DNA of 39,952 bases from Paenibacillus sp. (GTDB taxonomy: Bacteria; Bacteroidota; Bacteroidia; Bacteroidales; Muribaculaceae). Shown here in pieces: positions 16,587-39,910 of this stretch. The position numbers and the translations under genes were made by a program. Position 1 is the stretch's first letter. The number at the start of each line of letters is the position of its first letter. Under the pieces are notes generated by a model that had not been told where the DNA came from, made no database searches, and was given only the letters and a program-made list of their open reading frames with translations. The DNA lies in contig JAMPHR010000001.1 of NCBI GenBank assembly GCA_023663345.1, positions 160,045-199,996 of the forward strand, given 5' to 3'.

Positions 16587-16621
16587 GATCGTATATTTTG
16601 ATTTTCGGTTTTCCGGTACTG

Positions 16622-16629
16622 CAAAACTA
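16622..16629 (-). promoter_or_regulatory. -7 box of the GH32-permease-fructokinase operon
   Basis: The minus strand reads TAGTTTTG, matching TAnnTTTG, 36 bp before the GH32 start. No good -33 element exists, as expected for an activator-dependent promoter; the operator at 16660-16677 ends exactly 30 bp upstream of this box. Confidence 0.6.
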
Positions 16630-16650
16630 ATATTAATAATTTTGTGGCGG

Positions 16651-16690
16651 TATCAAATATGTTGCATAGTGTATCAAATATGTTGTATCG
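16651..16690 (-). promoter_or_regulatory. Operator-like direct repeat for the hybrid sensor regulator
   Basis: On the plus strand TATCAAATATGTTG occurs at 16651-16664 and again at 16672-16685, a 21-bp period (two helical turns). On the minus strand the core reads TTGATACACTATGCAACA (16677-16660). The same sequence with one change occurs upstream of susC at 19681-19698. The AraC-type output domain of the hybrid sensor encoded next door is the obvious candidate to bind; this is inferred. Confidence 0.7.
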
Positions 16691-16736
16691 CCTAATTTTT
16701 AATAGATTACACAACATTTATACTAACGGAAATTAC

Positions 16737-16744
16737 TATATTTG
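16737..16744 (+). promoter_or_regulatory. -7 box of the hybrid two-component gene
   Basis: TATATTTG fits the consensus and ends 22 bp before the chosen start at 16767. It is about 50 bp from the operator repeats, so autoregulation is possible but not shown. Confidence 0.5.
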
Positions 16745-16766
16745 CATTGCAGATAATAGATCAGCA

Positions 16767-19535: not shown

Positions 19536-19640
19536 ACCATTTCTCCTCTCTCCTCCCTTCCCTTTCTCTCTTATTCTTTCTCCTCTTTTTTCTCTCATAT
19601 TCCCCTTTATCTTCATGCCGGTGGCCCATAGTGCTTAAAA

Positions 19641-19698
19641 ATGTTGCGAAATATATCAAAAATCGGTGGTTGCATAGATTTTGATACACGATGCAACA
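19641..19698 (+). promoter_or_regulatory. Operator region upstream of the fructan susC
   Basis: TTGATACACGATGCAACA at 19681-19698 differs in one base from the sequence upstream of the GH32 operon and stands at the same 30-bp distance from the -7 box. GTTGCAT (19669-19675) and ATGCAAC (19691-19697) form an inverted repeat. A weaker reverse-oriented copy of the core lies at 19642-19660. These may be several binding sites for the hybrid sensor's AraC domain. Confidence 0.7.
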
Positions 19699-19728
19699 AT
19701 TGTAATACCCTATTATATAGGCCGGTTG

Positions 19729-19736
19729 TAACTTTG
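19729..19736 (+). promoter_or_regulatory. -7 box of the fructan susC operon
   Basis: TAACTTTG is a good -7 match, 32 bp before the susC start. There is no TTTG at the normal -33 distance, which agrees with activation through the upstream operator. Confidence 0.6.
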
Positions 19737-19768
19737 TGGCATGAGAAACTTAACCAACTAATTTTATC

Positions 19769-22700
19769 ATGAAAAGAACAATCCTTTATGCCTTATTTCT
19801 GCTGTTGGCAGTGATATGTGCGCAAGCACAGAGCATCACAGTGCATGGGACGGTGATTTCAGCCACCGATTCCGAACCGCTGATAGGTGCAAGTGTCATC
19901 CCTGATACCGACGCCACCGCCGGAGTCGCTACAGATATTGACGGTAATTTCACGCTTACAGTGCCCGAAGGCTGCAACCTGACTATTTCTTATGTGGGAT
20001 ACAAGTCCCAGACTGTGAAAGCCACCCCCGAAATGACAGTGACTCTCGAGGAGGACTCCGAGATCCTCGATGAAGTGGTAGTGGTAGGTTATTCGACCGA
20101 AAAGAAATCTGACCTCACCGGCTCGGTATCGGTAGTGAAGATGAAAGATGTGGCCGATACCCCCACCGGCAATGTGATCCAGGCCCTGCAGGGCCGTGTG
20201 GCCGGTATGAACGTCACCACCGACGGTACCCCCGGCGGTCTCAGCACCGGCACATCGATCCGTGGTGCCTCCTCGTTCCGTGGCGATGCCAACGGCCCCC
20301 TCTATGTGATCGACGGCGTGATGACCCGCGAGAATCCCGGCACTATCCTCAACAGCAACGATGTTGAGTCGATCCAGGTGCTCAAGGATGCCGCCTCGGC
20401 TGCCATCTACGGCGCTCAGGCCGCCAACGGTGTCATCATCATCACCACCAAGCGTGCCAAGCAGGGCGAGTGCCGTGTGACATTCGATGCCACCCTCACT
20501 CTCCAGACCTACAACAGCGGTCTCGACATGCTCAACGCCGACCAGTGGGGCGAGGTATATTGGGCCGCACATAAGTACACCTATGGTATAACTCCTCCCT
20601 CCAACGAGCTTTACGGCAACGGCGCCACCCCCAAGCTCCAGTCCTACACCAACCTCAACGGCGTGGCTGTGGATCCGCAGAACACCGATTGGGAGAAGGA
20701 GATACACCGCACCGCCCTCATGCAGACCTACAGCGTGGGTCTCTCCAAGGGTTCCGAGAACGGCGCCTCGTCGATGTCGCTCAGCTGGCTCGACCACGAC
20801 GGTATCATCAAGGGCTCGGACTTCCAGAAGGCCAACGCCCGCTTCAGCTCCGACTACGGCTATCTCAACAACCGTCTCCGTGCCGGCGGTAATGTCACCG
20901 TCAACTGGTGGAGACAGCACAACGCCCCCGGCGGTGTGGAGGAGAACGCCATCAAGATGCACCCCGCCCGCACCGTGTATGACTCGGAGGGCAACTACAA
21001 CGACCAGGTGGCTTTCGGCCTCAACGATACCCCCAACCTCGTGCGTCAGATCGAGGAGCAGAGCAAGAACAAGCATGAATACTGGCGCGTGTTCGGTAAC
21101 GCTTTCCTCTCCATCGAGCTTATCAAGAACCTTATCGTGAAGACCAACTTCGGTATCAACTACCACAATGGCACCGACAAGGAGTTTACCCCCGCCAACT
21201 TGCGCGACAACACCAACACCCTCTATCAGTATTCGAGCAAGACAGTCGACTGGGTGTGGACCAACACCGCCCAGTACAACGTGGACCTCGGCAAGAACTC
21301 CATCATGGCCCTCGTGGGTATCGAGTCAAAGCGCAACCACTTCGAGGATATGTATGGACGTGGCAAGGGCCTCGAGATCGAGGATGAGAACTACTGGTAT
21401 CTCGGCAACGTGACCTCCGACCAGACTCTCGGCTCAGGTGCCTCCAACTACTCGATGTTCTCGCTCTTCGGCAAGTTCAACTATGTGTGGGACAACAAGT
21501 ATCTCGCCTCAGTGACCATACGTCGCGATGCCTCCTCCCGCCTCTCCGATTCCAACAACTACGACTGGTTCCCCTCCTTCTCGGCCGGCTGGCGCATCTC
21601 GCAGGAGAATTTCATGGAAGGCACCCGCTCATGGCTTTCCGACCTCAAGATACGTGGCGCCTACGGTGTGAACGGTAACGACATCATCGCCAACGACGCT
21701 TTCTATGCCAAGTATGAGATGGACATGAACAAGGCCGGATATGCCATCGACGGTGGCAACAAGCTCTATCCCGGAGCCTACCGCTCGCGCCGCACCAATC
21801 CCGACCTCACATGGGAGAAGACCTATCAGACCAACGTGGGCTTCGATGCCTCGCTGCTCAACAACCGCCTCTCGCTCTCGTTTGACTACTTCCACAAGAA
21901 GACCAAGGACATGCTTGTCGAGAAGCCCTATATCGCCACTATCGGCGAGGGTGGCTACTGCTGGTACAACGGTGGCGATATGGTCAACAAGGGTGTCGAG
22001 ATCGTGCTCAACTGGCGTCAGGCCGTCAACAAGGATTTCAGCTACGAGGTAGGCCTCAATGTCACCGCCATGAAGAATAAGGTGACCGGCCTCATGGACG
22101 ATATCTATTACACCTGGGGCGGTGGCAATGGACGCGACAAGAGTATCGTGGGCCAGGCTCTCGGATCATGGATGGGCTACAAGACCGACGGTATATTCCG
22201 CACTCAGGAGGAGGTGGATGCCTACAAGGCCCAGTATAAGGTGGGCTTCGGCAGTCCCGCAGTAGGCCGTGTGCGCTACGTGGACACCAACGGCGACGGC
22301 GAGATCAACGACCGCGACCGCACATGGCTCGGCACCGATCTCCCCAAGGCTCAGTTTGGTCTCAACCTCTCGGCCAATTACAAGGACTTTGACCTGAGCA
22401 TGTTCTTCAGCAGCATCATCCGCGATGCCTGGAACAACTCCAAGTACTACACCGACTTCTTCCCCCTCTGGACCGGCAACCACGGCACCCAGCTCCTTGA
22501 TGCCGCCAACGCCTACGAGAACTATCTCGCCAACGGCTACTACGCATCCGATGTGCCCGCCCCAGCGATCGACAACTCCAACAGCGAGGGTGAGGGTTCC
22601 GACTACTACATCGAGGACGGCTCATTCCTGCGACTGAAATCGCTCTCGCTCGGCTACTCGCTCCCCCGCCACATCCAGAGCAAGCTCTCGCTTAAGAGCG

Positions 22701-22828
22701 CCCGCATATATTTCCAGGCTCAGAACCTCTTCACCATCACCAAGTACAGCGGTGCCGACCCCGAGGGTCTCGGATACCCCTACGCAATGCCCCGCCAGTA
22801 CACTTTCGGTATTCAGTTTGGATTCTAA
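19769..22828 (+). CDS. SusC-like TonB-dependent transporter for fructan oligosaccharides
   Basis: An outer-membrane protein of 1019 residues with a signal peptide ending near AQAQ (about residue 21). A carboxypeptidase-regulatory-like domain (about 22-95) contains GTVISATDSEPLIGASV and the DIDGNFTL turn. The TonB box/plug entry EVVVVGYSTEKKSDLTGSV is near residue 110, and the plug has the TSIRGASSF and VLKDAASAAIYGAQAANGVIIITTK blocks. The barrel ends with the terminal Phe in IQFGF. It should form a lidded transport complex with the SusD-like protein encoded 23 bp downstream. Position beside the BT1754-like sensor and GH32 enzymes indicates fructan or fructo-oligosaccharide import. The operator upstream predicts activation by that sensor. 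Confidence 0.93.
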   Translation: MKRTILYALFLLLAVICAQAQSITVHGTVISATDSEPLIGASVIPDTDATAGVATDIDGNFTLTVPEGCNLTISYVGYKSQTVKATPEMTVTLEEDSEILDEVVVVGYSTEKKSDLTGSVSVVKMKDVADTPTGNVIQALQGRVAGMNVTTDGTPGGLSTGTSIRGASSFRGDANGPLYVIDGVMTRENPGTILNSNDVESIQVLKDAASAAIYGAQAANGVIIITTKRAKQGECRVTFDATLTLQTYNSGLDMLNADQWGEVYWAAHKYTYGITPPSNELYGNGATPKLQSYTNLNGVAVDPQNTDWEKEIHRTALMQTYSVGLSKGSENGASSMSLSWLDHDGIIKGSDFQKANARFSSDYGYLNNRLRAGGNVTVNWWRQHNAPGGVEENAIKMHPARTVYDSEGNYNDQVAFGLNDTPNLVRQIEEQSKNKHEYWRVFGNAFLSIELIKNLIVKTNFGINYHNGTDKEFTPANLRDNTNTLYQYSSKTVDWVWTNTAQYNVDLGKNSIMALVGIESKRNHFEDMYGRGKGLEIEDENYWYLGNVTSDQTLGSGASNYSMFSLFGKFNYVWDNKYLASVTIRRDASSRLSDSNNYDWFPSFSAGWRISQENFMEGTRSWLSDLKIRGAYGVNGNDIIANDAFYAKYEMDMNKAGYAIDGGNKLYPGAYRSRRTNPDLTWEKTYQTNVGFDASLLNNRLSLSFDYFHKKTKDMLVEKPYIATIGEGGYCWYNGGDMVNKGVEIVLNWRQAVNKDFSYEVGLNVTAMKNKVTGLMDDIYYTWGGGNGRDKSIVGQALGSWMGYKTDGIFRTQEEVDAYKAQYKVGFGSPAVGRVRYVDTNGDGEINDRDRTWLGTDLPKAQFGLNLSANYKDFDLSMFFSSIIRDAWNNSKYYTDFFPLWTGNHGTQLLDAANAYENYLANGYYASDVPAPAIDNSNSEGEGSDYYIEDGSFLRLKSLSLGYSLPRHIQSKLSLKSARIYFQAQNLFTITKYSGADPEGLGYPYAMPRQYTFGIQFGF

Positions 22829-22851
22829 CTCTTCCTTAAACAACGAATTTC

Positions 22852-24630
22852 ATGAAACTCAAGAATATTATCACTCTCTTCACTGCTTCAGCAGCCCTTC
22901 TCTCCTGTAGCGACGATTTCCTCAAGAATCCGCCCCAGGGTCCTCTCTCCGAGGCCAATATGAACGATCCCTCAGCCGTGGATCTGCTCGTCAACAGCGC
23001 CTACGCCACTTTCGGATGCCGCTATGCCGACTCCAACGATCCCCACCTCTTCCCGCTCACCAACTGGAGCTATGGCGAGGTCCGCGCCGACAATGCCTAC
23101 AAGGGCGGTGGCGGTGAGACCGACCTCTGGGAGGTGCACGACATGGAGACTGCCAAGATACAGCCCAACAATGGTTTCCTCGATGGAAAATGGTTCAATG
23201 CCTATTGCGGTATATCGCGTTGCTCCTCCACCATACGCACTCTCCAAAAGGTGGATGAGTCACAGGTGCCTGCCAAGAACACCCGCATCGCCGAGATCCG
23301 CGTCATCCGCGACCACTGGTATTTCGAGCTTGTACGTCTCTTCAACCGCATCCCCTACATGGATATAGATCTTCCTGAGAATGAGTATGTCAATGTGAGA
23401 AACGATGAGTTCACCCGCGAGCAGCATCTCGACCGCATCGCCAAGGATCTCCTTGAGGCCGCCGAGAGTCTCCCCGAGACACAGACCCAGATCGGACGCA
23501 TCAACAAGCGTGCCGCCCTGGCCTATGCTGCCAAAGTGAAGCTCTATCAGGCTTACGAGCAGGATCCACAGACCAACGCCGTGGTCAATGTCAACAAGGC
23601 TCTGCTTAAGGAGGTGGTCGACATCATCGACGGCATACAGGGCTACAATCTGCTCTCCGACTTCCAGCAGCTCGACATGCTCGAGTATGAGAACGGCCCC
23701 GAGGCTGTGCTCACCGTGCAGTTCTCCAAGAATGACGGCACCGCCGACGGCGGTCGCGTGAACTGGAGTATGCTCCTCAACTCCATGACCGGCCCCGGCT
23801 GTCCGTGGCAGGGCGACGGATTCTTCCTCCCCTCCCAGGACCTCATTAACGCCTATCAGACCGACGAGAACGGCCTGCCGCTCTTCGACTATCAGTCGCG
23901 CCCCGACTATGGCGTGGTTGAGTTTGATTCCTCCGATGCCAACGACTATCATCTGGCCAATGTCGACGGCAACGTTGACCCCCGTCTCGATTTCGTGACC
24001 GGCCGTCCCACCATCCGCTACAAAACATATCTTGGCTCGGCCTGTGGCTTGTGGGTGCGCAACCGCGATGCCTACGGTTACAACAACACCAAGCGCTTCT
24101 GGCTGTCGCCCGAGTCAGCCGATGCCAACCAAGGTTGGCCCTGGGGTGCTTCAGCTCTCAACTGGCAGATAATCCGCTATGCCGACCTGCTTCTCTATAA
24201 GGCCGAGGCTCTGATAGAAATGGGTAGCGCCGACAATCTCGATGAGGCCCGCACGCTCATCAACCGTGTGCGTGAGCGTGCCCAAAAGAGTGCCTACGTC
24301 AAGGATTTCAACAATCCCGCCAAGTATGCCGCCAACTACAGCATCGGCCTCTATCCCGCCGCCGGCTGGAACCAAGATTATGCCCGAAAGGCTCTGCGCA
24401 CCGAGATGCGTCTGGAGAAGGCTATGGAGGGTGAGCGATTCTATGACCTCGTGCGCTGGGGTATAGCCAAGGAGGTGATGAACAATTACTTCAAGGCCGA
24501 GAAGGACAACCGCATCTACTATCAGAACGCCAGCTTCGAGACCGGCGAGGAATACTTCCCCATCCCCGTGGCCCAGTACAATTTCTCAGGTGGAAAATAT
24601 GTTCAGAATCCCGGTTATCCCGCTTTCTGA
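22852..24630 (+). CDS. SusD-like surface glycan-binding lipoprotein (fructan locus)
   Basis: The 592-residue lipoprotein has lipobox LLSC (Cys19) followed by Ser-Asp-Asp, which resembles the acidic surface-export signal of Bacteroidetes lipoproteins. The mature protein has the SusD pattern: an N-terminal NPPQGPLSE segment, TPR-like helices around FELVRLFNRIPYMD (about residues 165-180), and the C-terminal RYADLLLYKAEALIEMG and RLEKAMEGERFYDLVRWG helices near 440-540. It forms the lid of the SusC transporter and captures the polysaccharide. It follows susC closely, so the pair is co-transcribed. No separate surface-binding or surface endo-acting protein follows, unlike the Bacteroides thetaiotaomicron fructan locus. 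A hairpin terminator lies between it and the next GH32 gene. Confidence 0.92.
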   Translation: MKLKNIITLFTASAALLSCSDDFLKNPPQGPLSEANMNDPSAVDLLVNSAYATFGCRYADSNDPHLFPLTNWSYGEVRADNAYKGGGGETDLWEVHDMETAKIQPNNGFLDGKWFNAYCGISRCSSTIRTLQKVDESQVPAKNTRIAEIRVIRDHWYFELVRLFNRIPYMDIDLPENEYVNVRNDEFTREQHLDRIAKDLLEAAESLPETQTQIGRINKRAALAYAAKVKLYQAYEQDPQTNAVVNVNKALLKEVVDIIDGIQGYNLLSDFQQLDMLEYENGPEAVLTVQFSKNDGTADGGRVNWSMLLNSMTGPGCPWQGDGFFLPSQDLINAYQTDENGLPLFDYQSRPDYGVVEFDSSDANDYHLANVDGNVDPRLDFVTGRPTIRYKTYLGSACGLWVRNRDAYGYNNTKRFWLSPESADANQGWPWGASALNWQIIRYADLLLYKAEALIEMGSADNLDEARTLINRVRERAQKSAYVKDFNNPAKYAANYSIGLYPAAGWNQDYARKALRTEMRLEKAMEGERFYDLVRWGIAKEVMNNYFKAEKDNRIYYQNASFETGEEYFPIPVAQYNFSGGKYVQNPGYPAF

Positions 24631-28888: not shown

Positions 28889-30961
28889 TTAGAATCCCTG
28901 GAGACCCGAAGTAGGAGTCTGACCATAGCCGTTGTCGCCATACTCGTTGGCATTCAGGATAACCTGGAGGAACGAGGAAGCAACGGGGCGGTTGTAATAC
29001 TCCTTCTTGAACGACTTGGCGGCACGGGGATTGTACTTAGCCAGACGGGTCTCGAAAGCGTGGTGACGCTTGAGGAGGCCCCATCGGTTGTACTCACCGC
29101 AAAGCTCGCGTGCATACTCGTCGAAGATATCCTCCTCGGTAGCGGTCGAGAGCTTCCACTCCGACTCGGGAGCATTCTTGCGGGCGGCGCGCTGGCGCAG
29201 AACGTTCAGGTAGTCAGCAGCCTTGGCACCGTTGCCAAGCATCTGATTGGCCTCGGCGGCGATGAGGTAAACCTCGGCCATACGCATGATGTAGATGTCG
29301 CCGTTTCTTCTCTGGAGATCCTTGCCGAAGCAACCTTCAGCCGACCAGATGAACTTGATGAGCGAGGGGAAAGCGTCGGCACGTACCTGGCCGTTTCCGA
29401 TTGCCGGGGGATTGGAAGCCTCCGAGCCGTTGGCGGTGTTACCGTAGGGCATATTGTTGGAGCCGAACAGATCCTTCATGCACACAACCACGTAACGGCA
29501 CTTGGCCTTGTCGGCTGCCGACATGGGCTCGTGAACGAAGAGGGTGTTGAAGCGGTCGTCATCGGGGGTGACGGGATAGGGGATAGCCATGGCTTTGGTG
29601 GTACCGCTGTATCCGGGCTGACCTATCTGAGATCCGTTAGAGGGGATCGAGAGCAGCACACCGGCATCGCCCGAGTGATCACCCTTGGGCCAGATCTTGG
29701 GGATATACTGGTTGTGTCCACCGGCCGAAGTTACATAATTACAATCGGCATAGGGGTAGATCACATCACCAACGTGGGACTTGTCGATGCCATAGAGGTC
29801 ACAGTTAGCCTCGGTAAGTGTTTTCTGGCCACCTGTATAGTTTACCCATCCGCACTGTACCATCGAGAAGTCGCTACCTGCAAACATGAACGAGTAGTCC
29901 CAACGACGGTCCCATTCGGGGTTGAACGAGTAGAGCAGATACTGGCTCGGTACCCATGCCACATTGTTGACACGTCCATAGAAGTAGTTACCGTTCTTGT
30001 TGGGGTCATGAGCATAGAGATCGCGGTAGAAGTCGCTCATGGTGTACTTGAAGAGGGTACAGGTGTTGAAGTCGATCGAGTAAGCCTCGTCGTTGGCGTC
30101 AGCACCGGGAGCCACGAAGAGGGCCTCGCGGTTGGTGCGGTTGTTGGCATCCGACCACATGTCGGCGATATCGGTGTAGAGATAAGCTCCGTAGGTCGAG
30201 GCGTTGGTTATCATCTCCTCGGCAGTCTCGGCAGCGAGCTTCCAGTACTTCTCGGCGTCGCCATACTTGTCACCGAGGCCGGCACGCTGGGCATATACGC
30301 GGGCCAGGAGTCCCATGGCCGACTTCTTGCTCATGCGGGCGCGGTTGCCCTGGAACGGTTCGGTCTGAAGAGCGGAAATGGCTTCCTTGAGGTCCTTCTC
30401 GATCTGATCGTAGAACACATTCTCGGCTGTACGGGTGGGGTAGAGGTCGAGTTCGCCGGTGAAGGCCGAGCTCTGTCCCATGTTGAGGGTCACGGGGCCG
30501 AAGTTGGACACGAGCAGGAAGTTGTAGAACGCTCTCAGGGCCTTGGTCTCGGCCACGAGGATGTCGATATTGGCCTGGTTACCGCCCTGTACCTCAGCTG
30601 CCTGGTCGATCACTGTGTTACAGTTGGAGATCATGGCGTAGCACTGGTTCCAGAGCTTGGTGGTGGTGTTGGTCGAGGGGGAGAACTGCTCATAGTTCAT
30701 TACCTCCTGGGCATAGTTGTTATTGCCTGCCGATTGCCACAGGTCGGTACCGCCTTCCGAGGCGAATACCCAGTCGGACGAGCCGTAGAGCTGTGCTGAA
30801 ATCGGGGAGTAGGAATAAGCCTGGAGGCCGGCCCAGATCTCGTAGGTCCTCAGTGTTGCGTCGCCGGCACCGGGGTTATCCTCGGTCAGCTCGCATGAGG
30901 TGGTGAGAAGTCCTGCCATGGCAAGCATGGGCAGAGCCATATTTTTAATATAGTATTTCAT
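28889..30961 (-). CDS. SusD/RagB-like surface lipoprotein, tandem locus copy 1
   Basis: This 690-residue lipoprotein has lipobox TTSC (Cys23) followed by Glu-Leu-Thr-Glu-Asp, an acidic surface-export-like stretch. SusD/RagB features include CYAMISNCNTVID near residue 105-118, ETKALRAFYNFLLVSNFGPVTL near 140-160, and MRMAEVYLIAAEANQMLGNG near 570-590. The C-terminal end GDNGYGQTPTSGLQGF is shared with its paralogue. It is longer than an average SusD (about 500-600 residues), with a large middle insertion. It pairs with the SusC encoded 26 bp upstream. No hydrolase, sulfatase or peptidase is nearby, so the ligand cannot be predicted. It is clearly paralogous to the 34638-36722 protein. Confidence 0.9.
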   Translation of the reverse strand: MKYYIKNMALPMLAMAGLLTTSCELTEDNPGAGDATLRTYEIWAGLQAYSYSPISAQLYGSSDWVFASEGGTDLWQSAGNNNYAQEVMNYEQFSPSTNTTTKLWNQCYAMISNCNTVIDQAAEVQGGNQANIDILVAETKALRAFYNFLLVSNFGPVTLNMGQSSAFTGELDLYPTRTAENVFYDQIEKDLKEAISALQTEPFQGNRARMSKKSAMGLLARVYAQRAGLGDKYGDAEKYWKLAAETAEEMITNASTYGAYLYTDIADMWSDANNRTNREALFVAPGADANDEAYSIDFNTCTLFKYTMSDFYRDLYAHDPNKNGNYFYGRVNNVAWVPSQYLLYSFNPEWDRRWDYSFMFAGSDFSMVQCGWVNYTGGQKTLTEANCDLYGIDKSHVGDVIYPYADCNYVTSAGGHNQYIPKIWPKGDHSGDAGVLLSIPSNGSQIGQPGYSGTTKAMAIPYPVTPDDDRFNTLFVHEPMSAADKAKCRYVVVCMKDLFGSNNMPYGNTANGSEASNPPAIGNGQVRADAFPSLIKFIWSAEGCFGKDLQRRNGDIYIMRMAEVYLIAAEANQMLGNGAKAADYLNVLRQRAARKNAPESEWKLSTATEEDIFDEYARELCGEYNRWGLLKRHHAFETRLAKYNPRAAKSFKKEYYNRPVASSFLQVILNANEYGDNGYGQTPTSGLQGF

Positions 30962-30987: not shown

Positions 30988-33900
30988 TTAGAATGATACG
31001 TTCACGCCGAATACGAGCTGCTTGGTGAGCGGGAAGTTGAACGAGCCGTTCATTTCGGGATCATAACCCTTCAGGAGCTTGCTGCTTGCATGCACGAGGG
31101 GGTTGGTGATGGTACCGTAGACACGGAACTTGCTCAGGTAAAGACGCTTGCACAGGTTCTCGGGCATTGTGTATCCGAGGGTGATGTTCTTGATCTTGAA
31201 GAACGAGCCGTCAACCCACATAAGGGCGTTGGTGGTGGTCTTCAGGGTGAGGTCGCGGTTGGCATCGAGTGCGGGGAACTCGTTGGAGGGGTTCTCGGGA
31301 GTCCAGTAGTCGAAGTGCTCGGGGAACGCTCCGCCGTGGCCATCGTACCAGCCGATAGGCTCGTAGCTGAACATCTGTCCGTTACGCCACATCATATAGA
31401 TGCTGAGGTCAAACCATTTCCAGGTGAAGTTATTCTGGAAGCCGAGGGTCCAGTCGGGCGAGTTGTGGCCGATGATCTGGGCGTCGTTGGCGTCGATAGC
31501 GTAGGGGTTCTCAGCATCGTAACGCTGGGTTGAGCCATCCTCAAAACGCTTCTCCCATACACCGTCGCTCACCTTGTACATGTTGGGCACAGCCACGCGC
31601 ACGTCACCGGGACGGTCGCCGAACACGGCTGCGTCAGCCTCCTGGCCGAGCTGCCAGATGCCGTCAAACTTGAGCTTGCGGTAGGACTGGATGGGGTAGC
31701 CCACCTGCAGTGTGTAAGCTCCGTTGGTCACATACTCGCCTGCGCCGTCGCCGAGCGAGGTCACTTTCTCCTTGTTGTTGGCGAATGTGAGGGTGCTCGA
31801 CCATGTGAAGTCGGGGAGCTGTACGTTGTGGGTGGTGAGGGTGAGCTCAAAGCCCTGGTTGCGTGTTGTGGCGATGTTACGGTTGATCGAGAACGCTGTA
31901 TTGGCATCGAATCCACCGTTGGTGATAGGAGTTCTCTGATTCCAGATCACACCGTCGGTGTTGGTGATGTAGTACTCGGCGGCGAGGTCAACGCGGTTGT
32001 TGAACAGGCCGAGGTCAAGACCGATGTTCCAGCTCTTGGAGCGCTCCCATGTGAGGGCGGCGTTTGAGAGGATCTGGGGGAAGAAGGCAGTGCCTACATA
32101 CTTTCCGCCGAGTGCCATCTGGCCGGTCTGGAGGAGCGACCATGATGCGTAGGGCGAAAGGCCGGCGGCACCTGTCTCACCGTAGCCCACACGGAGCTTG
32201 AGGTTGTTGAGATATCCACGGGAGAATTCCATGAAATCCTCGTCGGAGATACGCCATCCCAGCGAGAATGCGGGGAAGGTAGCCCAGTGGCGGTCGCTTG
32301 CGAGAACGGAGTCACCGTCGCGGCGCACTGAGGCCGACAGCAGATACTTGCCCATGAGCGTATAGTTCACGCGGGCGATGTAGCCCATGCGCTTGTGCAT
32401 GGTGTAGCTCGATCCGATGGTGGGGTTGGGGTCGGTGGCAGCGCCTACATTGGTCCAGTACATGGTGTTGCTGGGGATCTGTGTGGTATAGAGGTTGGAT
32501 CCCTCCACCTGGCTTGATTCCCACGAGGTTACGCCGGTGAGCGTGATGTCGTGGATATCGGCGATGGTGGTGTTGTAGGTGAGGATGTTCTCCCACTTGT
32601 AGCCCCAGGTGCGCGAGTTGCTGATGCTTGCGTTGGTCGAGCCCTTGAAGTCATCCTTGTTGGCTCCGAGTGAGGCCAGTCCGTTGGCCACATAGTAATT
32701 ATAGGATCCGTAGCCGTTGTAGGAGTTGGTGGTGGTGTAGTTGAAGTTACCGCTGAGACGTGACTCGAGTGTGAGGCCCTTGACCGGGGTGATGCGCACG
32801 TAGGGCTGCACGAAGAGGCGCAGACGGCTCTGGGCATTGCGGTAGGGTGCCTGCTCGGTGTCGAGGAGCAGGTTGTACACGTAGGGGGTCTGACCCACTA
32901 CGAGGGGGAAGGGGTTGAGCGAGCCATCCTCGTTGTAGAGGGTTCCGAAGGGAGCGGCGCGCAGACCGTCCGAAAGGTGGCTGTTGTTCTGGTTGCGGGT
33001 GGTGTAGGATGCCTGCACGTGTACACCGCTTGAGAGCCAGTTGCTGAGCTTGGTGCTCAGGCGCAGTGACGATGAGTACACCTTGAAGTTGTCGTTCTTG
33101 TACTGGCCCTTGTCCTCATTGTAGTTGAGCGAGAAGTAAGCCTGGGTCTTCTCGGTGCCGCCCGATACTGACAGCGAGTAGTTCTGGGTGAGGCCGCTGC
33201 CGAGCATCTCGTCGATCCAGTTGATGGTCTGACCGTTGGCCAGGGCCTGCTTGTAGGCCTGGAGCTCGGTGTCGGTGCTCAGGTCGGTGATGCCGGCGTA
33301 GGCATAGGCCATCTCGCGGGTCTTCACATACTGCTCGGGCGAGTTCATCTTGGGGGTGGTGGCCCAGCCGTTCACGCCCACGTAAGCGTCAAAGTTCACG
33401 CGGAGCTGGCCTTCCTTGCCCTTCTTGGTGGTGATGATGATTACACCGTTGGAGCCTTCCGAACCATAAACGGCTGTCGATGAGGCATCCTTGAGCACCT
33501 CGATGCTCTCGATGTCGTTGGGGTTGATGGTGGAGTAGTCACCGGGCATACCGTCGATGAGGAACAGAGGATCGCCACTTGCCGAGATCGAACGGTTACC
33601 ACGCAGCTGGATGTTGAGTCCTTCGCCGGGACGGCCCGAGGTCTTGGTGATGTCAAGACCGGCGATGCGGCCCTGAAGTGCCTCCATCGGGTTGGCGGCC
33701 GGGGTGAGGGTGATCACGTCGGATTTCACTGATGAGATAGCACCGGTGAGGTCGCGCTTCTTCACTGTACCGTAGCCCACTACCACTACATCGTCGAGCA
33801 CGTTGTTGTCGGGGGCCATCGTGATGTTGATGGTGCCCTGCGAGCCTACGGTGGCAGTCTGTGTCTTATAACCGATATAAGAGAATTGGAGTGTGGCGCC

Positions 33901-34089
33901 CGGAGCGGCCTGTATCGAGTAGTTGCCGTCGAAGTCGGTGGCGACTCCCTCCTTGGTGCCGAGGATGAGAACGGACACACCGATCATGGGGTCGCCGTTT
34001 TCATCAATGACAGTACCTGAAACTGCTCGTTTCTGGCTAACTGATTGAGAGACAGAGGAATTTACCCCCCCCCATACTCTCGTTGGCAT
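30988..34089 (-). CDS. SusC/RagA-like TonB-dependent transporter, tandem copy 1, signal peptide out of frame
   Basis: The open frame gives 1033 residues: a carboxypeptidase-regulatory-like domain (SGTVIDENGDPMIGVSV, then ATDFDGNYSI, about residues 24-62), the plug entry LDDVVVVGYGTVKKRDLTGA (about 98-117), the plug block VLKDASSTAVYGSEGSNGVIIITTK, and a barrel ending in NVSF. Read alone it has no signal peptide, and its first Met (34089) lacks a ribosome-binding site. A complete signal peptide is encoded just upstream in another frame (start 34204). The two frames would join if the nine-G run at 34073-34065 lost one G or gained two. The gene may be switched off, expressed by slippage, or miscounted at the homopolymer. 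A good promoter lies upstream. The partner is the SusD-like gene downstream. Confidence 0.85.
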   Translation of the reverse strand: MPTRVWGGVNSSVSQSVSQKRAVSGTVIDENGDPMIGVSVLILGTKEGVATDFDGNYSIQAAPGATLQFSYIGYKTQTATVGSQGTINITMAPDNNVLDDVVVVGYGTVKKRDLTGAISSVKSDVITLTPAANPMEALQGRIAGLDITKTSGRPGEGLNIQLRGNRSISASGDPLFLIDGMPGDYSTINPNDIESIEVLKDASSTAVYGSEGSNGVIIITTKKGKEGQLRVNFDAYVGVNGWATTPKMNSPEQYVKTREMAYAYAGITDLSTDTELQAYKQALANGQTINWIDEMLGSGLTQNYSLSVSGGTEKTQAYFSLNYNEDKGQYKNDNFKVYSSSLRLSTKLSNWLSSGVHVQASYTTRNQNNSHLSDGLRAAPFGTLYNEDGSLNPFPLVVGQTPYVYNLLLDTEQAPYRNAQSRLRLFVQPYVRITPVKGLTLESRLSGNFNYTTTNSYNGYGSYNYYVANGLASLGANKDDFKGSTNASISNSRTWGYKWENILTYNTTIADIHDITLTGVTSWESSQVEGSNLYTTQIPSNTMYWTNVGAATDPNPTIGSSYTMHKRMGYIARVNYTLMGKYLLSASVRRDGDSVLASDRHWATFPAFSLGWRISDEDFMEFSRGYLNNLKLRVGYGETGAAGLSPYASWSLLQTGQMALGGKYVGTAFFPQILSNAALTWERSKSWNIGLDLGLFNNRVDLAAEYYITNTDGVIWNQRTPITNGGFDANTAFSINRNIATTRNQGFELTLTTHNVQLPDFTWSSTLTFANNKEKVTSLGDGAGEYVTNGAYTLQVGYPIQSYRKLKFDGIWQLGQEADAAVFGDRPGDVRVAVPNMYKVSDGVWEKRFEDGSTQRYDAENPYAIDANDAQIIGHNSPDWTLGFQNNFTWKWFDLSIYMMWRNGQMFSYEPIGWYDGHGGAFPEHFDYWTPENPSNEFPALDANRDLTLKTTTNALMWVDGSFFKIKNITLGYTMPENLCKRLYLSKFRVYGTITNPLVHASSKLLKGYDPEMNGSFNFPLTKQLVFGVNVSF

Positions 34090-34153
34090 AGGATGTCAAG
34101 GCCGATCCGCTTATGAGAGCGGCGGTGATGAGTCCGCAAGCCAACCTTCTGTC
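33851..34153 (-). repeat. 303-bp identical block, copy 1 (signal peptide end, G9 run, first domain of SusC)
   Basis: Every base of this segment matches 39608-39910, whereas DNA on both sides differs. It includes the end of the signal peptide, the nine-G run and most of the first mature domain. Recent gene conversion or duplication would explain it. Confidence 0.85.
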
Positions 34154-34204
34154 AGCCAGGGGCATACCCGCAACTGTAGACAGAGATTTTGGTCTTTTCT
34201 TCAT
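34037..34204 (-). CDS. Signal-peptide frame of tandem SusC copy 1
   Basis: A 55-codon frame begins with Met-Lys-Lys-Arg at 34204. It has a basic n-region of about 20 residues, a hydrophobic core LACGLITAALISGSALT and a likely cleavage site after SYA at residue 40. After Met44 it runs into the G run (34073-34065), reads GGGKFL and stops at TAG (34039-34037). Loss of one G joins it to the SusC frame as ...SMGGVNSSVS. It is not a separate gene but the missing 5' part of SusC. Confidence 0.8.
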   Translation of the reverse strand: MKKRPKSLSTVAGMPLADRRLACGLITAALISGSALTSYANESMGGGKFLCLSIS

Positions 34205-34325
34205 GATGATTTGTTAAAATGAATGGTATAAATTTAAGTCGCTTAGTCGCTTTGGCAAAGTCTTTATAGATAGGGGATGTAATCGAAATAAATAGTTGTA
34301 TCCGAAAATATTCCTTAAATATCGG

Positions 34326-34358
34326 CAAATGTACTAAAAAAGTGTAAACGATACAAAA
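34326..34358 (-). promoter_or_regulatory. Promoter of tandem SusC/SusD operon copy 1
   Basis: On the minus strand TTTTG (34358-34354) and TACATTTG (34333-34326) are separated by exactly 20 bp, a near-ideal Bacteroidales promoter. It would give a leader of about 115 nt before the signal-peptide ATG at 34204, which supports that ATG as the real start. Confidence 0.72.
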
Positions 34359-34478: not shown

Positions 34479-34568
34479 TAAGTAATTCGGTATTAGATCT
34501 AAAAGACTTTGCGTTAAATTTATACCAATGTCATTGACAAATCACTTGCTGGTGACACTGCTTGAAAT

Positions 34569-34637: not shown

Positions 34638-36722
34638 TCATTCAAATCCCTGCAGACCCGAGGTAGGTGTCTGGCCATAGCCATTGTCACCATACTCGTT
34701 GGAGTTGAGGATCTGCTGGAGGAAGTCAGATGATACGGGACGGTTGTACATGTACTTCTGGAACGACTTGGCGGCACGGGGATTGTACTTGGCCAGACGG
34801 GCCTCGAACGCATTGTGGCGCTTGAGCAGGAGCCAGCGGTTGAACTCACCGCACATCTCGCGTGCATATTCGTCGAAGATATCATCCTCGGTGGCAGTGG
34901 CGAGCTTCCATTCGCCCTCGGGTACTCCGGGACGGGCTGCACGCTGGCGCAGGGTGTTGATATAGCCGGCGGCTACGGTTCCCTGACCGAGCATCTGGCG
35001 AGCCTCGGCGGCTATCAGGTATATCTCGGCCATACGCATGATGTACATGTCGCCGGTCTTGATCTGGGGTTCCGAACCATAGAAAGCTCCGTCATACGAC
35101 CAGTTGAACTTGCTCAGCGAGGGGCAGGCGCTTGCGCTTGTCAGTCCGTTGCCCACAGCGGGGGGATTGGCGGCCTCGGAGCCGTTCACCACGTTACCGT
35201 AGGTGATGCCGTTGGAGCCGTAGAGATCGCTGAGCACTACCACTGCATAGCGGCACTTGGCCTTGTCGGCAGCCGAGAGGGGCTCGTGAACGAATACGGT
35301 GTTGAAACGGTTGTCATCAAGAGCCACGGGATAAGGCACTGCATAAGCCTTGGTTGAACCACAGGTAGAGGGATTTGTCACTTGTGCACCTGAGTTTGCT
35401 ACGTTCAAAAGATTATTTTTATTACCTGAAATATCTCCCTTTGGCCAGATCTTTGCAGGAGTCTGGTTACCTCCGAAAGGAGCTGTAATCGCTTCACAAT
35501 TCACATACGGGTATATGATCTCATTTTCATGAGACACGTCTATTCCGTATTTTTCGCATAAGCTTTTTGTGAGTTTTTTCTGGCCTTTGCTATAGGTCAC
35601 ACTCCAATCCAATAACGAATAATCGTTATACGCGTAGATAAATGAGTATTCCCAACGGCGGTCCCACTTAGGATTGAAGCAGTACATCAGATACTTGGAG
35701 GGTACGAATGTCTGGGCATTGATACGGCCATAGTAGTAGTGGGTACCCTTCTTGGTGGGGTTCTGGTTGAATAGTTCCTGATATACGCCACCGCTTGAAT
35801 AGGCAAGCAATTTGTTGCGTTTGGAGGTAAGACTCCAAGCATCGCTATAGGCGTCGGCTCCGGCTGCGATGAAGAGGGCCTCGCGGTTGGTGCGGTTGTT
35901 GGCATCGGCCCACATGTCGGCGATGTCGGTGTAGAGGTGGGCGTTGTAGGAGGATGCGTTGTTGATCAGGTTCTCGGCAGTCTCGGCGGCGAGCTTCCAG
36001 TACTGGTCACCGTCGCCATACTTGTTGCCGAGGCCGGCACGCTGGGCATACACGCGGGCAAGCAGGCCGATGGCGGTCTTCTTGGTCACGCGGGCACGGT
36101 TGTTCTCGTAAGGCTCAATGCCCAGGTCGGGTTCGGCCTCCTTGAGGTCCTTGATGATCTGATCATAGAAATCCTTCTCGCTCGAACGCACGGGGTTGAG
36201 GTCGATTGTGCCGGTGAAGCCGGTGGCGGAGTTCATGTTGAGTGTCACGGGACCGAAATTGGACACAAGCAGGAAGTTGTAGAACGCGCGGAGCACCTTG
36301 GTCTCGGCCACGAGCACTTTGATGTCGTCCTGACTGTTGGCACCGTCTGTTATGTTTCCAGCTTCATTGATCACTGTGTTGCAGTTGGCTATCATCGAGT
36401 AGCACTGGAGCCACAGTTTTGAAGTGGAGTTGTTACTGGTGGAGTAGTTCTCATAGTTGATGTCGGAGCGGTATCCGTCACCGTTGCCGCTTGCCTGCCA
36501 CAGGTCGGTGCCGCCTTCCGAGGAGATGAACCAGTCGGAAGCGGTGTAAAGCTCGTCGTTGAGCGTGGAGTATGATACAGCCTGGAGTCCTTTCCAGTTG
36601 AGGAAGAGATTGAGCTGTGCGTTGCCACCCGCGGGGTTGTCCTCGGTCAGCTCGCACGAGGTGGTCATGAGACCGGCCATGGCGAGCGAGGCGATCGCAA
36701 ATCTATTTATATATTTTTTCAT
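34638..36722 (-). CDS. SusD/RagB-like surface lipoprotein, tandem locus copy 2
   Basis: A lipoprotein of 694 residues with lipobox TTSC (Cys23) followed by the same Glu-Leu-Thr-Glu-Asp-Asn stretch as copy 1. Long blocks are shared with copy 1, such as ETKVLRAFYNFLLVSNFGPVTLN, the RVYAQRAGLG helix region, MRMAEIYLIAAEARQMLGQG and the C-terminal GDNGYGQTPTSGLQG. The middle (about residues 290-450) is much more divergent, including the part after DAYSDAW. In SusD proteins such loops shape the ligand pocket, so the two copies may bind different ligands. It lies 16 bp downstream of the copy-2 SusC gene. No degradative enzyme is linked within the window. Confidence 0.9.
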   Translation of the reverse strand: MKKYINRFAIASLAMAGLMTTSCELTEDNPAGGNAQLNLFLNWKGLQAVSYSTLNDELYTASDWFISSEGGTDLWQASGNGDGYRSDINYENYSTSNNSTSKLWLQCYSMIANCNTVINEAGNITDGANSQDDIKVLVAETKVLRAFYNFLLVSNFGPVTLNMNSATGFTGTIDLNPVRSSEKDFYDQIIKDLKEAEPDLGIEPYENNRARVTKKTAIGLLARVYAQRAGLGNKYGDGDQYWKLAAETAENLINNASSYNAHLYTDIADMWADANNRTNREALFIAAGADAYSDAWSLTSKRNKLLAYSSGGVYQELFNQNPTKKGTHYYYGRINAQTFVPSKYLMYCFNPKWDRRWEYSFIYAYNDYSLLDWSVTYSKGQKKLTKSLCEKYGIDVSHENEIIYPYVNCEAITAPFGGNQTPAKIWPKGDISGNKNNLLNVANSGAQVTNPSTCGSTKAYAVPYPVALDDNRFNTVFVHEPLSAADKAKCRYAVVVLSDLYGSNGITYGNVVNGSEAANPPAVGNGLTSASACPSLSKFNWSYDGAFYGSEPQIKTGDMYIMRMAEIYLIAAEARQMLGQGTVAAGYINTLRQRAARPGVPEGEWKLATATEDDIFDEYAREMCGEFNRWLLLKRHNAFEARLAKYNPRAAKSFQKYMYNRPVSSDFLQQILNSNEYGDNGYGQTPTSGLQGFE

Positions 36723-36738: not shown

Positions 36739-39700
36739 TTAGAATGTTACGTTCAGACCGAATACGAGCTGACGGGTGAGGGGATGGTTGATGTTGCCCA
36801 TCTGTTCGGGATCATAACCCTTCAGCACGTCGTTTTTGGCTACGATGAGGGGGTTGGTGATGGTGCCGTAGAGGCGGAGGTTCTCGATGCGGAGCATGTT
36901 GCAAGCAGGACGGGGCAGGGTGTAGCCGAGGGTGATGTTCTTGATCTTGAAGAACGATCCGTCAACCCAGTAGATTGACTCGTTGCCCGATGCTTTCTGC
37001 CAGTTGCGCTCGGAATCGAGGGCGGGGAATTCGTTGGAGGGATTGTCGGGGGTCCAGTAGTTGAAGTGCTCGGGGAACGAACCGCCGTGACCGGTGTACC
37101 AGCCTATGGGATCGTAACGGAACATCTGGCCGTAACGGAACATCATGTAGACGCTGAGATCAAACCACTTCCAGTTAAAGTTGTTCTGGAGACCGAGCTG
37201 CCAGTCGGGAGTTTCGTGGCCTATGATCACACGGTCGTCATCGTTGATGCTGTAGGTGTTCTTCTCATCGTAGGTCTTGACGGTTCCATCGGCAAATCTC
37301 TTTTCCCATACGCCCTCGCTCACCCGGTACATTCCGGGGATATTCACGCGGATGTCACCGGGACGGGCCTTGAATACGGCTGCATCAGCCTCTTCCCCCA
37401 ACTGCCATATACCGGCAAATTCATGCTGGCGGTAAGATTTGATGGGGTCGCCGATGTGGAGAGTATAATTGCTCTTACCATCAGTACCTTTGTTAGCAAT
37501 ATATTCTGCTGCATTACGACCGAGAGAGGTTACCTCTTCCTTGTTGGTAGAGAATGTGAGGGTGGTCGACCACTTGAAGTCCTGGGTGTCAAAGTTGTGG
37601 GAGGTCACAGAAAGCTCGAAGCCCTGGTTGCGGGTGGTGGCGATGTTGCGGTTGATGTTATAGAGGGTCGAAGCGTTGAAACCACCGTTGTTAACGGGGA
37701 TTGCCTGAGCCCAGATTACACCGTCGGTGTTGGTCAGATAGTACTCCAGAGCCATGTCTATACGGTTGTTGAGCAGACCGAGGTCAACACCGAAGTTCCA
37801 GCTCTTGGAGCGTTCCCATGTGAGGTCCTTGTTGGAGATAGGGTTGGGGTAGATGGACTTGTCCACGATCTTGTCACCGAGACCCATCTGCTCGGAGCGG
37901 AGGGTCGACCATGATGCGTAGGGCTGAAGGCCGGCGGCACCTGTCTCACCGTAACCGATACGGAGCTTGAGGTTGCTCATCCATTCGCGGGTGGATTCCA
38001 TGAAGTTCTCGTCGGAGATACGCCAGCCGGCCGAGAATGCGGGGAATGTGGCCCAGTGGAGACCGCTTGCGAGCACCGAGTCACCGTCGCGGCGCACTGA
38101 TGCCGAGAACAGATACTTGCCCATGAGGGTGTAGTTGAGTCGGGCCACATAACCCATGCGCTTGTGCATTGTATAGCCCGATCCTACCTCGGGTTTCACA
38201 TCCTTGGCTACGCCGAGGTTGGTCCAGTACTGCGAGTTGGTGGGAATACTGTTGGCATAAGCCCTGGTGTCGTCATATTGGGTTGATGACCAGGTGGTGA
38301 CACCGGTGACGGTGAAATCGTGAATGTCGGCGAGCTTGAAATTGTAAGTGAGAATATTCTCCCAGGTATAACCCCAGTCGAATGAGTGTTTCTTCTCGGC
38401 TGTTACAACCTTTTGGAAATCCCAGTTTGGTGCTGTGATAGCGGCGCTACCTGCCTTGTTGTAGTAGTTCCAGGAACCGTAGCCGAGATACTTGTTGGTA
38501 TTGGAGTAAGTGAAGTTACCGCTGAGGCGTGTCTCCAGGGTCAGGCCCTTGATGGGGTTGATGCGGAGATAGGGCTGAACGTACAGGCGCAGGTTGCGCG
38601 ACTGGTTGCGGTAGTTCTCCTTATTGTCGAGCAGAAGGTTGATCTGGTCGGTGTTCTTGGTGAGGGGGAATGGGCGCAGTGAGCCGTCCTCGTTGTAGAG
38701 CGTACCGAAGGGATCGGAACGGAGACCGTCGTTGAGGTGGCTGTCGGCCTGATGACGGTCAGTGTAGGAACCCTGCACGTGTACACCGCCCTGGAGCCAG
38801 TTGTTGAGCTTGGTGTTGAGTCTCACCGAGGTTGAGTACACCTTGTAGCTTGAATTGCGGTACTGGCCGTTCACGTCGTTGTAGTTGAGCGAGAAGTAAG
38901 CCTGGGTCTTCTCGGTGCCACCCGACATTGAGAGCGAGTAGTTCTGGGTGATGCCTGTGCCAAGCAGTTCGTCAACCCAGTCGATGGTCTGGCCGTTGGC
39001 CAGAGCTTCCTTGTAGGCCTCGAGGTTGGAATCATCGGGAGCTACCTTGCCACCATAATAATAAGCGAGCTCGCGGGTGCGGATATTCTCGGCGGGCGAG
39101 GTCATGGTGGGGGTGGTGGCCCAGCCGTTCACACCCAGATAGGCGTCGAAATTCACCTTCATCTTGCCTTCCTGGCCCTTCTTGGTGGTGATGATGATCA
39201 CACCGTTGGAGCCTTCCGAACCGTAGACGGCTGTCGAAGAGGCATCCTTGAGCACCTCGATGCTCTCGATATCGTTGGGGTTGATGGTGGAGTAGTCACC
39301 GGGCATACCGTCGATGAGGAAGAGCGGGGTGCCGCTCGCGGTGATCGAACGGTTACCACGGAGCTGGATATTGAGTCCTTCGCCGGGCTGGCCTGAGGTT
39401 TGCGAGATGTCAAGACCGGCCACACGTCCCTGCAAGGCCGCCATAGGGTTGGCCGAGGGGGTGAGGGTGATAATGTCGGACTTTACTGAGGAGACGGCAC
39501 CGGTGAGGTCGCGTTTCTTCACTGTACCGTAGCCCACAACCACTACGTCGTCCAGCACATTGTTGTCGGGGTCCATCGTGATGTTGATGGTGCCCTGCGA
39601 GCCTACAGTGGCAGTCTGTGTCTTATAACCGATATAAGAGAATTGGAGTGTGGCGCCCGGAGCGGCCTGTATCGAGTAGTTGCCGTCGAAGTCGGTGGCG

Positions 39701-39846
39701 ACTCCCTCCTTGGTGCCGAGGATGAGAACGGACACACCGATCATGGGGTCGCCGTTTTCATCAATGACAGTACCTGAAACTGCTCGTTTCTGGCTAACTG
39801 ATTGAGAGACAGAGGAATTTACCCCCCCCCATACTCTCGTTGGCAT
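36739..39846 (-). CDS. SusC/RagA-like TonB-dependent transporter, tandem copy 2, signal peptide out of frame
   Basis: The open frame encodes 1035 residues and is paralogous to copy 1 throughout: the same carboxypeptidase-regulatory-like domain, plug entry LDDVVVVGYGTVKKRDLTGA, plug block VLKDASSTAVYGSEGSNGVIIITTK and a barrel ending in NVTF. The N-terminal ~80 residues are identical to copy 1, while the barrel is more diverged. As in copy 1, the first Met (39846) has no signal peptide, and a signal-peptide frame upstream is separated by a nine-G run (39830-39822). The same one-base loss would restore a normal exported SusC. The true 5' end and promoter are beyond the window. It is co-transcribed with the SusD-like gene 16 bp downstream. 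Confidence 0.85.
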   Translation of the reverse strand: MPTRVWGGVNSSVSQSVSQKRAVSGTVIDENGDPMIGVSVLILGTKEGVATDFDGNYSIQAAPGATLQFSYIGYKTQTATVGSQGTINITMDPDNNVLDDVVVVGYGTVKKRDLTGAVSSVKSDIITLTPSANPMAALQGRVAGLDISQTSGQPGEGLNIQLRGNRSITASGTPLFLIDGMPGDYSTINPNDIESIEVLKDASSTAVYGSEGSNGVIIITTKKGQEGKMKVNFDAYLGVNGWATTPTMTSPAENIRTRELAYYYGGKVAPDDSNLEAYKEALANGQTIDWVDELLGTGITQNYSLSMSGGTEKTQAYFSLNYNDVNGQYRNSSYKVYSTSVRLNTKLNNWLQGGVHVQGSYTDRHQADSHLNDGLRSDPFGTLYNEDGSLRPFPLTKNTDQINLLLDNKENYRNQSRNLRLYVQPYLRINPIKGLTLETRLSGNFTYSNTNKYLGYGSWNYYNKAGSAAITAPNWDFQKVVTAEKKHSFDWGYTWENILTYNFKLADIHDFTVTGVTTWSSTQYDDTRAYANSIPTNSQYWTNLGVAKDVKPEVGSGYTMHKRMGYVARLNYTLMGKYLFSASVRRDGDSVLASGLHWATFPAFSAGWRISDENFMESTREWMSNLKLRIGYGETGAAGLQPYASWSTLRSEQMGLGDKIVDKSIYPNPISNKDLTWERSKSWNFGVDLGLLNNRIDMALEYYLTNTDGVIWAQAIPVNNGGFNASTLYNINRNIATTRNQGFELSVTSHNFDTQDFKWSTTLTFSTNKEEVTSLGRNAAEYIANKGTDGKSNYTLHIGDPIKSYRQHEFAGIWQLGEEADAAVFKARPGDIRVNIPGMYRVSEGVWEKRFADGTVKTYDEKNTYSINDDDRVIIGHETPDWQLGLQNNFNWKWFDLSVYMMFRYGQMFRYDPIGWYTGHGGSFPEHFNYWTPDNPSNEFPALDSERNWQKASGNESIYWVDGSFFKIKNITLGYTLPRPACNMLRIENLRLYGTITNPLIVAKNDVLKGYDPEQMGNINHPLTRQLVFGLNVTF

Positions 39847-39910
39847 AGGATGTCAAGGCCGATCCGCTTATGAGAGCGGCGGTGATGAGTCCGCAAGCCA
39901 ACCTTCTGTC
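39608..39910 (-). repeat. 303-bp identical block, copy 2
   Basis: Base-for-base identical to 33851-34153, including the nine-G run. Beyond it the signal-peptide n-region differs (ends in ALVADRR here, MPLADRR in copy 1). Confidence 0.85.

Follow-up and report, generated by a model that had tools for sequence, protein, structure and literature searches.

The window analysed here is a stretch of 39,952 nt that holds two SusC/SusD gene pairs with a G tract on the minus strand (Table 1). Copy 1 of SusC matches the SusC/RagA family models TIGR04056 (842.6 bits, against a family cut-off of 368.25) and TIGR04057, contains Plug and CarboxypepD_reg-like domains, and has a SusD gene adjoining it. A further region of the window (14748-24630) resembles a fructan-use locus, in which a SusC/SusD pair that has no G tract is grouped with a GH32 enzyme and a hybrid sensor regulator.

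Table 1. Features of the two SusC/SusD pairs, with positions in the window.
Feature	Position	Strand	Basis
Signal-peptide frame of copy 1, 55 aa, MKKRPKSLSTVAGMPLADRRLACGLITAALISGSALTSYANESMGGGKFLCLSIS	34037..34204	minus	read directly from sequence
G9 tract of copy 1, proposed slippage switch (ON = 8/11, OFF = 7/9/10)	34065..34073	minus	sequence reading
SusC copy 1 main frame, 1033 aa, TonB-linked transporter	30988..34089	minus	TIGR04056; Plug + CarboxypepD_reg-like
SusD partner of copy 1, 690 aa, intact	28889..30961	minus	PF14322 + PF07980
303-nt block including the tract, identical to copy 2 39608-39910	33851..34153	minus	comparison of copies
Likely -7 element of susC copy 1, TACATTTG	34326..34333	minus	predicted; consensus TAnnTTTG (PMC7366714)
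SusC copy 2 main frame, 1035 aa	36739..39846	minus	TIGR04056, 850.3 bits
G9 tract of SusC copy 2, identical to copy 1 tract	39822..39830	minus	sequence reading
SusD partner of copy 2, 694 aa, intact	34638..36722	minus	PF14322 + PF07980

The SusC frame of copy 1 extends over 1033 codons with zero internal stops, and it is offset from the frame that encodes the signal peptide. The signal peptide (MKKRPK...TSYANES) opens at the ATG at 34204, and in the assembled state of nine G its frame terminates 28 nt past the run (stop codon 34039-34037). Because the first ATG of the SusC frame (34089) comes after the hydrophobic core, this frame is without a signal peptide of its own. Direct reading thereby confirmed the first-pass annotation, which had a signal peptide running from 34204 into G9 (34073-34065) and SusC in another frame. 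Its two further statements also hold in the sequence, namely that 8 or 11 G join the two into one frame and that 10 G place TAA immediately after the run. With eight G, the linker from SYA to VSQK has 14 residues, which is the same length as in the tract-less orthologue L075, and the idea that a mobile element inserted here and created the tract is therefore not supported at this site.

Copy 2 has the same arrangement, with the signal-peptide start just beyond the window edge and no other stop in the 1035 codons of its SusC frame. The two SusC copies are about 76% alike overall vs 100% identical over the 303-nt block around the tract, and from this comparison we read the block as a recent exchange between them. 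Given this exchange, the out-of-frame (OFF) states of both copies probably have a single origin. For the SusC frame, dN/dS is 0.37 when the two copies are compared, 0.20 against L075, and 0.11 and 0.05 against L076, with synonymous change near-saturated in both of the latter comparisons. Judged by these values (0.05-0.37), purifying selection acts on the SusC frame. Both copies could instead be young pseudogenes with a fixed frameshift, the break being common to them through the identical block. This is highly improbable given the absence of further stops, dN/dS values well below 1, the intact SusD partners, and seven more SusC genes of the genome that are broken at a tract.

Placement and phase of G tracts in the genome

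The surveyed assembly comprises 2.64 Mb in 22 contigs and is 86.59% complete. Both its SusC/SusD content and its relatives accord with the order Bacteroidales, and Muribaculaceae is a presumed family. It contains 51 G runs of at least seven, 25 of at least eight and 14 of at least nine, all below the 434, 119 and 32 expected for independent bases at the composition of the window. Within the window, GGGGGGGG has four matches vs 2.37 expected, a number reached in 25 of 100 shuffles. The count of long G runs is not above chance in the window or the genome; their placement is. Eight of the 14 runs of at least nine lie no more than 250 nt into a SusC coding region, and these first 250 nt make up 0.39% of the genome (binomial P = 1.5e-16, or 2.2e-14 when both window copies are counted as one). 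Three more are upstream of SusC genes (L017, L018 and L025), one (L015) is 372 nt away from a SusC tract, and of the last two, one lies where a glycosyltransferase frame ends (L007) and the other where an acyltransferase frame starts (L022).

In this genome, 41 SusC genes score above the family cut-off. A tract of at least eight is found in or upstream of the start in 14 of these and in none of the other 27, one of which (L059) has an in-frame G7. The tract lies in the coding region and is 8-9 long in ten of the 41 genes, with nine OFF and one ON, i.e., with signal peptide and SusC in one frame. The 9-long coding tracts, all ON at eight, are those of window copies 1 and 2, L010, L011, L012, L013, L014 and L024. 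L048 has a C8 tract that is OFF and would be ON at 7 or 10, while L003, a paralogue of the window SusC genes, has G8 and is ON. Finding at most one ON among nine independent tracts has P = 0.14, which is compatible with random phase and is no proof of it.

All eight 9-long coding tracts require 8 (or 11) for ON, with the same +1 offset in each. The listing of runs of at least nine explains this uniformity in part only, and a systematic overcount would also yield it. The first-pass annotation regarded a homopolymer miscount as the main alternative. Under this alternative the actual length would be G8, and SusC copies 1 and 2 would be ordinary, intact genes. Some data are prone to error at G9 runs, each of the eight tracts wants one base fewer, and one relative (G008) has homopolymer noise at one contig end (L095). 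At this particular G9, a miscount is still the main rival explanation. It does not, however, explain why the tracts are placed in SusC starts, nor why L048 of this same assembly is OFF at C8. Additionally, 40 of the 41 SusC stretches are without a stop, so frame errors are not general in the assembly.

Tract length and reading frame in related genomes

No second genome of the same species was found, and the comparison therefore draws on relatives. In six genus members, 63 of 68 listed places with G8 followed by TA were sampled, i.e., chosen for TA, giving 60 loci of which 18 have a SusC domain. Seven SusC coding tracts were present among the fetched loci of relatives; L097, L137 and L141 are ON, and L089, L104, L106 and L121 are OFF. 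The ON length is 8 in some of them and 9 in others. Of a further 19 loci of the genus with G9 followed by TA, none had a tract inside a SusC coding region, and in one a tract lay upstream of SusC. Since coding tracts are this rare in the wider genus, the present genome is unusual in its number of tract-bearing SusC genes.

A DNA search recovered this AT-G(n)-TA site from a different species (L151), where the run is G7 and OFF with TAA right after it. The homologous site is thus found at G7 OFF (L151), G8 ON (L003) and G9 OFF (window), and frame tracks length. Among other related genes, L149, L150, L153 and L173 have no tract and read through, and L152, L154, L155, L174 and L175 read through with in-frame G6-G7 runs that have no TA after them. 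The SusC N-termini of L075 and L076, from public records titled Staphylococcus sp. and Bacteroides sp., equal those of the genus members G025 and G002, and the Staphylococcus label is probably an error.

Long G runs can slip, and the first-pass annotation had also suggested transcriptional slippage. The G9 would then be retained, with slippage of RNA polymerase or the ribosome yielding a fraction of full transporter, and a SusC body under selection fits with this. We consider such programmed slippage very unlikely, as neither tract length nor frame relation is conserved. The slip site is 7, 8 or 9 long at the homologous site, tract-less orthologues exist, the ON length is 8 or 9 elsewhere, and C runs replace G in L010, L013, L048, L097, L104 and L137.

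A change in tract length is seen in a polysaccharide region of the relative G009. Its two 6.6-kb copies (L135 and L136) are 98.3% identical with 110 mismatches, and the sole gap in their alignment is a G tract of 8 vs 9. The G9 copy has one open frame of 346 aa, an acyltransferase (PF01757), which in the G8 copy is two frames of 121 and 233 aa. Whether the copies arose by duplication or come from two strains binned together, the alignment indicates that tract length has changed, and the gene frame with it. The copies are in opposite orientation on two contigs, and inverted tract pairs in G009 were rejected as transposon ends, as both 4232-bp spacings belong to this one duplicated region. A triplicate in G008 (L094, L095 and L096, with G9, G10 and G10) was set aside because L095, at one contig end, shows homopolymer noise in the form of other homopolymer gaps.

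A miscount at the window tracts leaves the G009 pair unexplained, as well as the genes of other assemblies that are OFF at G7, G8 and C8; we regard it as unlikely. The tracts are also found in or beside other genes, and 20 chosen non-SusC frames were compared with Pfam. Four are PF01757 acyltransferases (L022, L118, L136 and L142), five belong to glycosyltransferase or branching-enzyme families (L007, L110, L116, L132 and L143), and two are hybrid sensor kinases (L115 and L119). The further matches are a cytidylyltransferase, a hexapeptide transferase, an OPT transporter, FecR and DUF3575, and L105 and L122 had no Pfam match. In the relative G014, a 528-aa open frame (L123) fuses an ECF sigma factor with an outer-membrane beta-barrel domain and contains a G8 tract at about 1201-1208.

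Collectively, the recurrence of the tracts, the homologous site with 7, 8 or 9 G and the G009 pair favour the ON/OFF phase switch that the first-pass annotation had proposed. We consider that the G9 is probably a slipped-strand (contingency) switch for an outer-membrane transporter of the SusC family. Replication slippage would add or remove G in the linker that joins the signal peptide to mature SusC. At 8 or 11 G the two halves would be in one frame and the transporter exported. At 7 or 10 G (TAA after the run) and at 9 G (stop 28 nt past it), there would be no exported transporter, and both window copies would be OFF as assembled. The same device would operate in ten SusC genes here and, more thinly, in SusC and polysaccharide genes of related species. 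Tract length presumably changes within a clone, with OFF meaning no protein, and cells might benefit by bet-hedging over nutrients or by evading phage or antibody.

Sequence context and promoter tracts

In this genome, TA directly follows the run in 14 of 14 cases for G runs of at least nine, 4 of 11 for G8 and 2 of 26 for G7. The reversed control, AT before the run, gives 5 of 25 for runs of at least eight and 2 of 14 for at least nine. The TA after the longest runs is independent of gene strand (e.g., window 34063-34073 and 39820-39830). In 26 other genomes of the genus, TA follows 173 of 386 runs of at least eight and 59 of 141 of at least nine, with 36 of 386 and 21 of 141 in the reversed control. 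Ten other genomes of the family have TA after 85 of 201 runs (control 26), and 24 other genomes of the order after 55 of 242 (control 23). The preference climbs steeply with run length in the genome studied here, but as a genus-wide function of length it was rejected, as TA is enriched in the genus with no rise with length. For G8 followed by TA the genome is not extreme, a family member (G032) having 21 of 49. For G9 followed by TA it has 14, against a maximum of 6 among the 26 genus genomes and of 7 among 246 others in a phylum sample.

Some tracts are placed near predicted promoters. The promoter consensus quoted in PMC7366714 consists of TTTG (-33) and TAnnTTTG (-7). In a sample of 83 gathered tracts, biased to G8 followed by TA, TAnnTTTG is found at most 45 nt downstream of 23 tracts, while 500 shuffles give a mean of 2.6 and a maximum of 7. 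Preferred distances are 11-14 nt (11 tracts) and 18-19 nt (8 tracts). In 10 of the 11 tracts in the first group, the run starts at TTG 18-22 nt ahead of the TA, which is approximately the -33 position. A switch that acts through spacer length is possible at these promoter tracts. Promoter-type tracts (L094-L144 and L025), with G8 upstream of several genes of relatives at these fixed distances, have TTAA a few bases ahead of the run.

The predicted promoter region of copy 1 is flanked by a 31-nt inverted repeat (34207-34237 and 34514-34544), 81% complementary and 276 nt apart, and an invertible promoter atop the G tract is therefore possible. A pattern search gave no other occurrence of the repeat motif in the genome. 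Inverted repeats flanking the promoter were found neither at copy 2 nor in any of seven related loci (L075, L076, L150, L151, L173, L174 and L003), and L175 has one short hairpin only.

A wider reading, which we put forward as tentative and rather doubtful, is that this lineage switches its nutrient transporters through a genome-wide set of poly-G tracts, with G(n)TA as the strict cis context. Two modes would exist. At SusC signal peptides the tract would switch the frame, and in promoters where its distance from the -7 box is fixed it would change the spacing. The invariant TA would identify sites that a sequence-specific factor or process renders or keeps unstable, and the switches would be spread or maintained as a class, not each arising alone.

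Relation to known systems and significance

Poly-G switching within the reading frame of TonB-dependent uptake systems is described for the haemoglobin receptors HmbR and HpuA of Neisseria meningitidis (PMC3786947). The SusC tracts share this arrangement. However, HmbR and HpuA serve iron uptake in Proteobacteria, whereas the present tracts, as putative switches, are in SusC genes of Bacteroidales, mostly at the signal peptide. In Bacteroides fragilis, phase variation of SusC/SusD is reported as site-specific inversion (reviews PMC12632263 and PMC11868660). There the same transporter family varies between ON and OFF, but a recombinase inverts DNA, while here homopolymer length would set the frame. 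Campylobacter and Helicobacter have G/C-tract contingency genes with several tracts per genome (PMC8355987; PMC2823697). The tracts described here are similarly several per genome, within and between genes. They differ in that the phylum is another, mainly SusC genes are involved, and TA strictly follows the long runs.

Among the matches listed in a search of mainly openly available literature, no paper described such switching, whether by poly-G tracts or by slippage, for SusC or for Muribaculaceae. Poly-G switching of TonB receptors and inversion at SusC are already known. Since the 2025 reviews describe phase variation in Bacteroidales by DNA inversion, a slippage route for SusC would be a new addition.

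SusC/SusD systems are surface-exposed and determine which glycans a Bacteroidales cell takes up. If the proposed switch is real, about a quarter of the SusC genes of this genome (10 of 41) would be behind slippage switches, and a clonal population would be a mixture of feeding types. Consensus assemblies would then show such transporters as broken, and predictions of glycan use made from them would be wrong.
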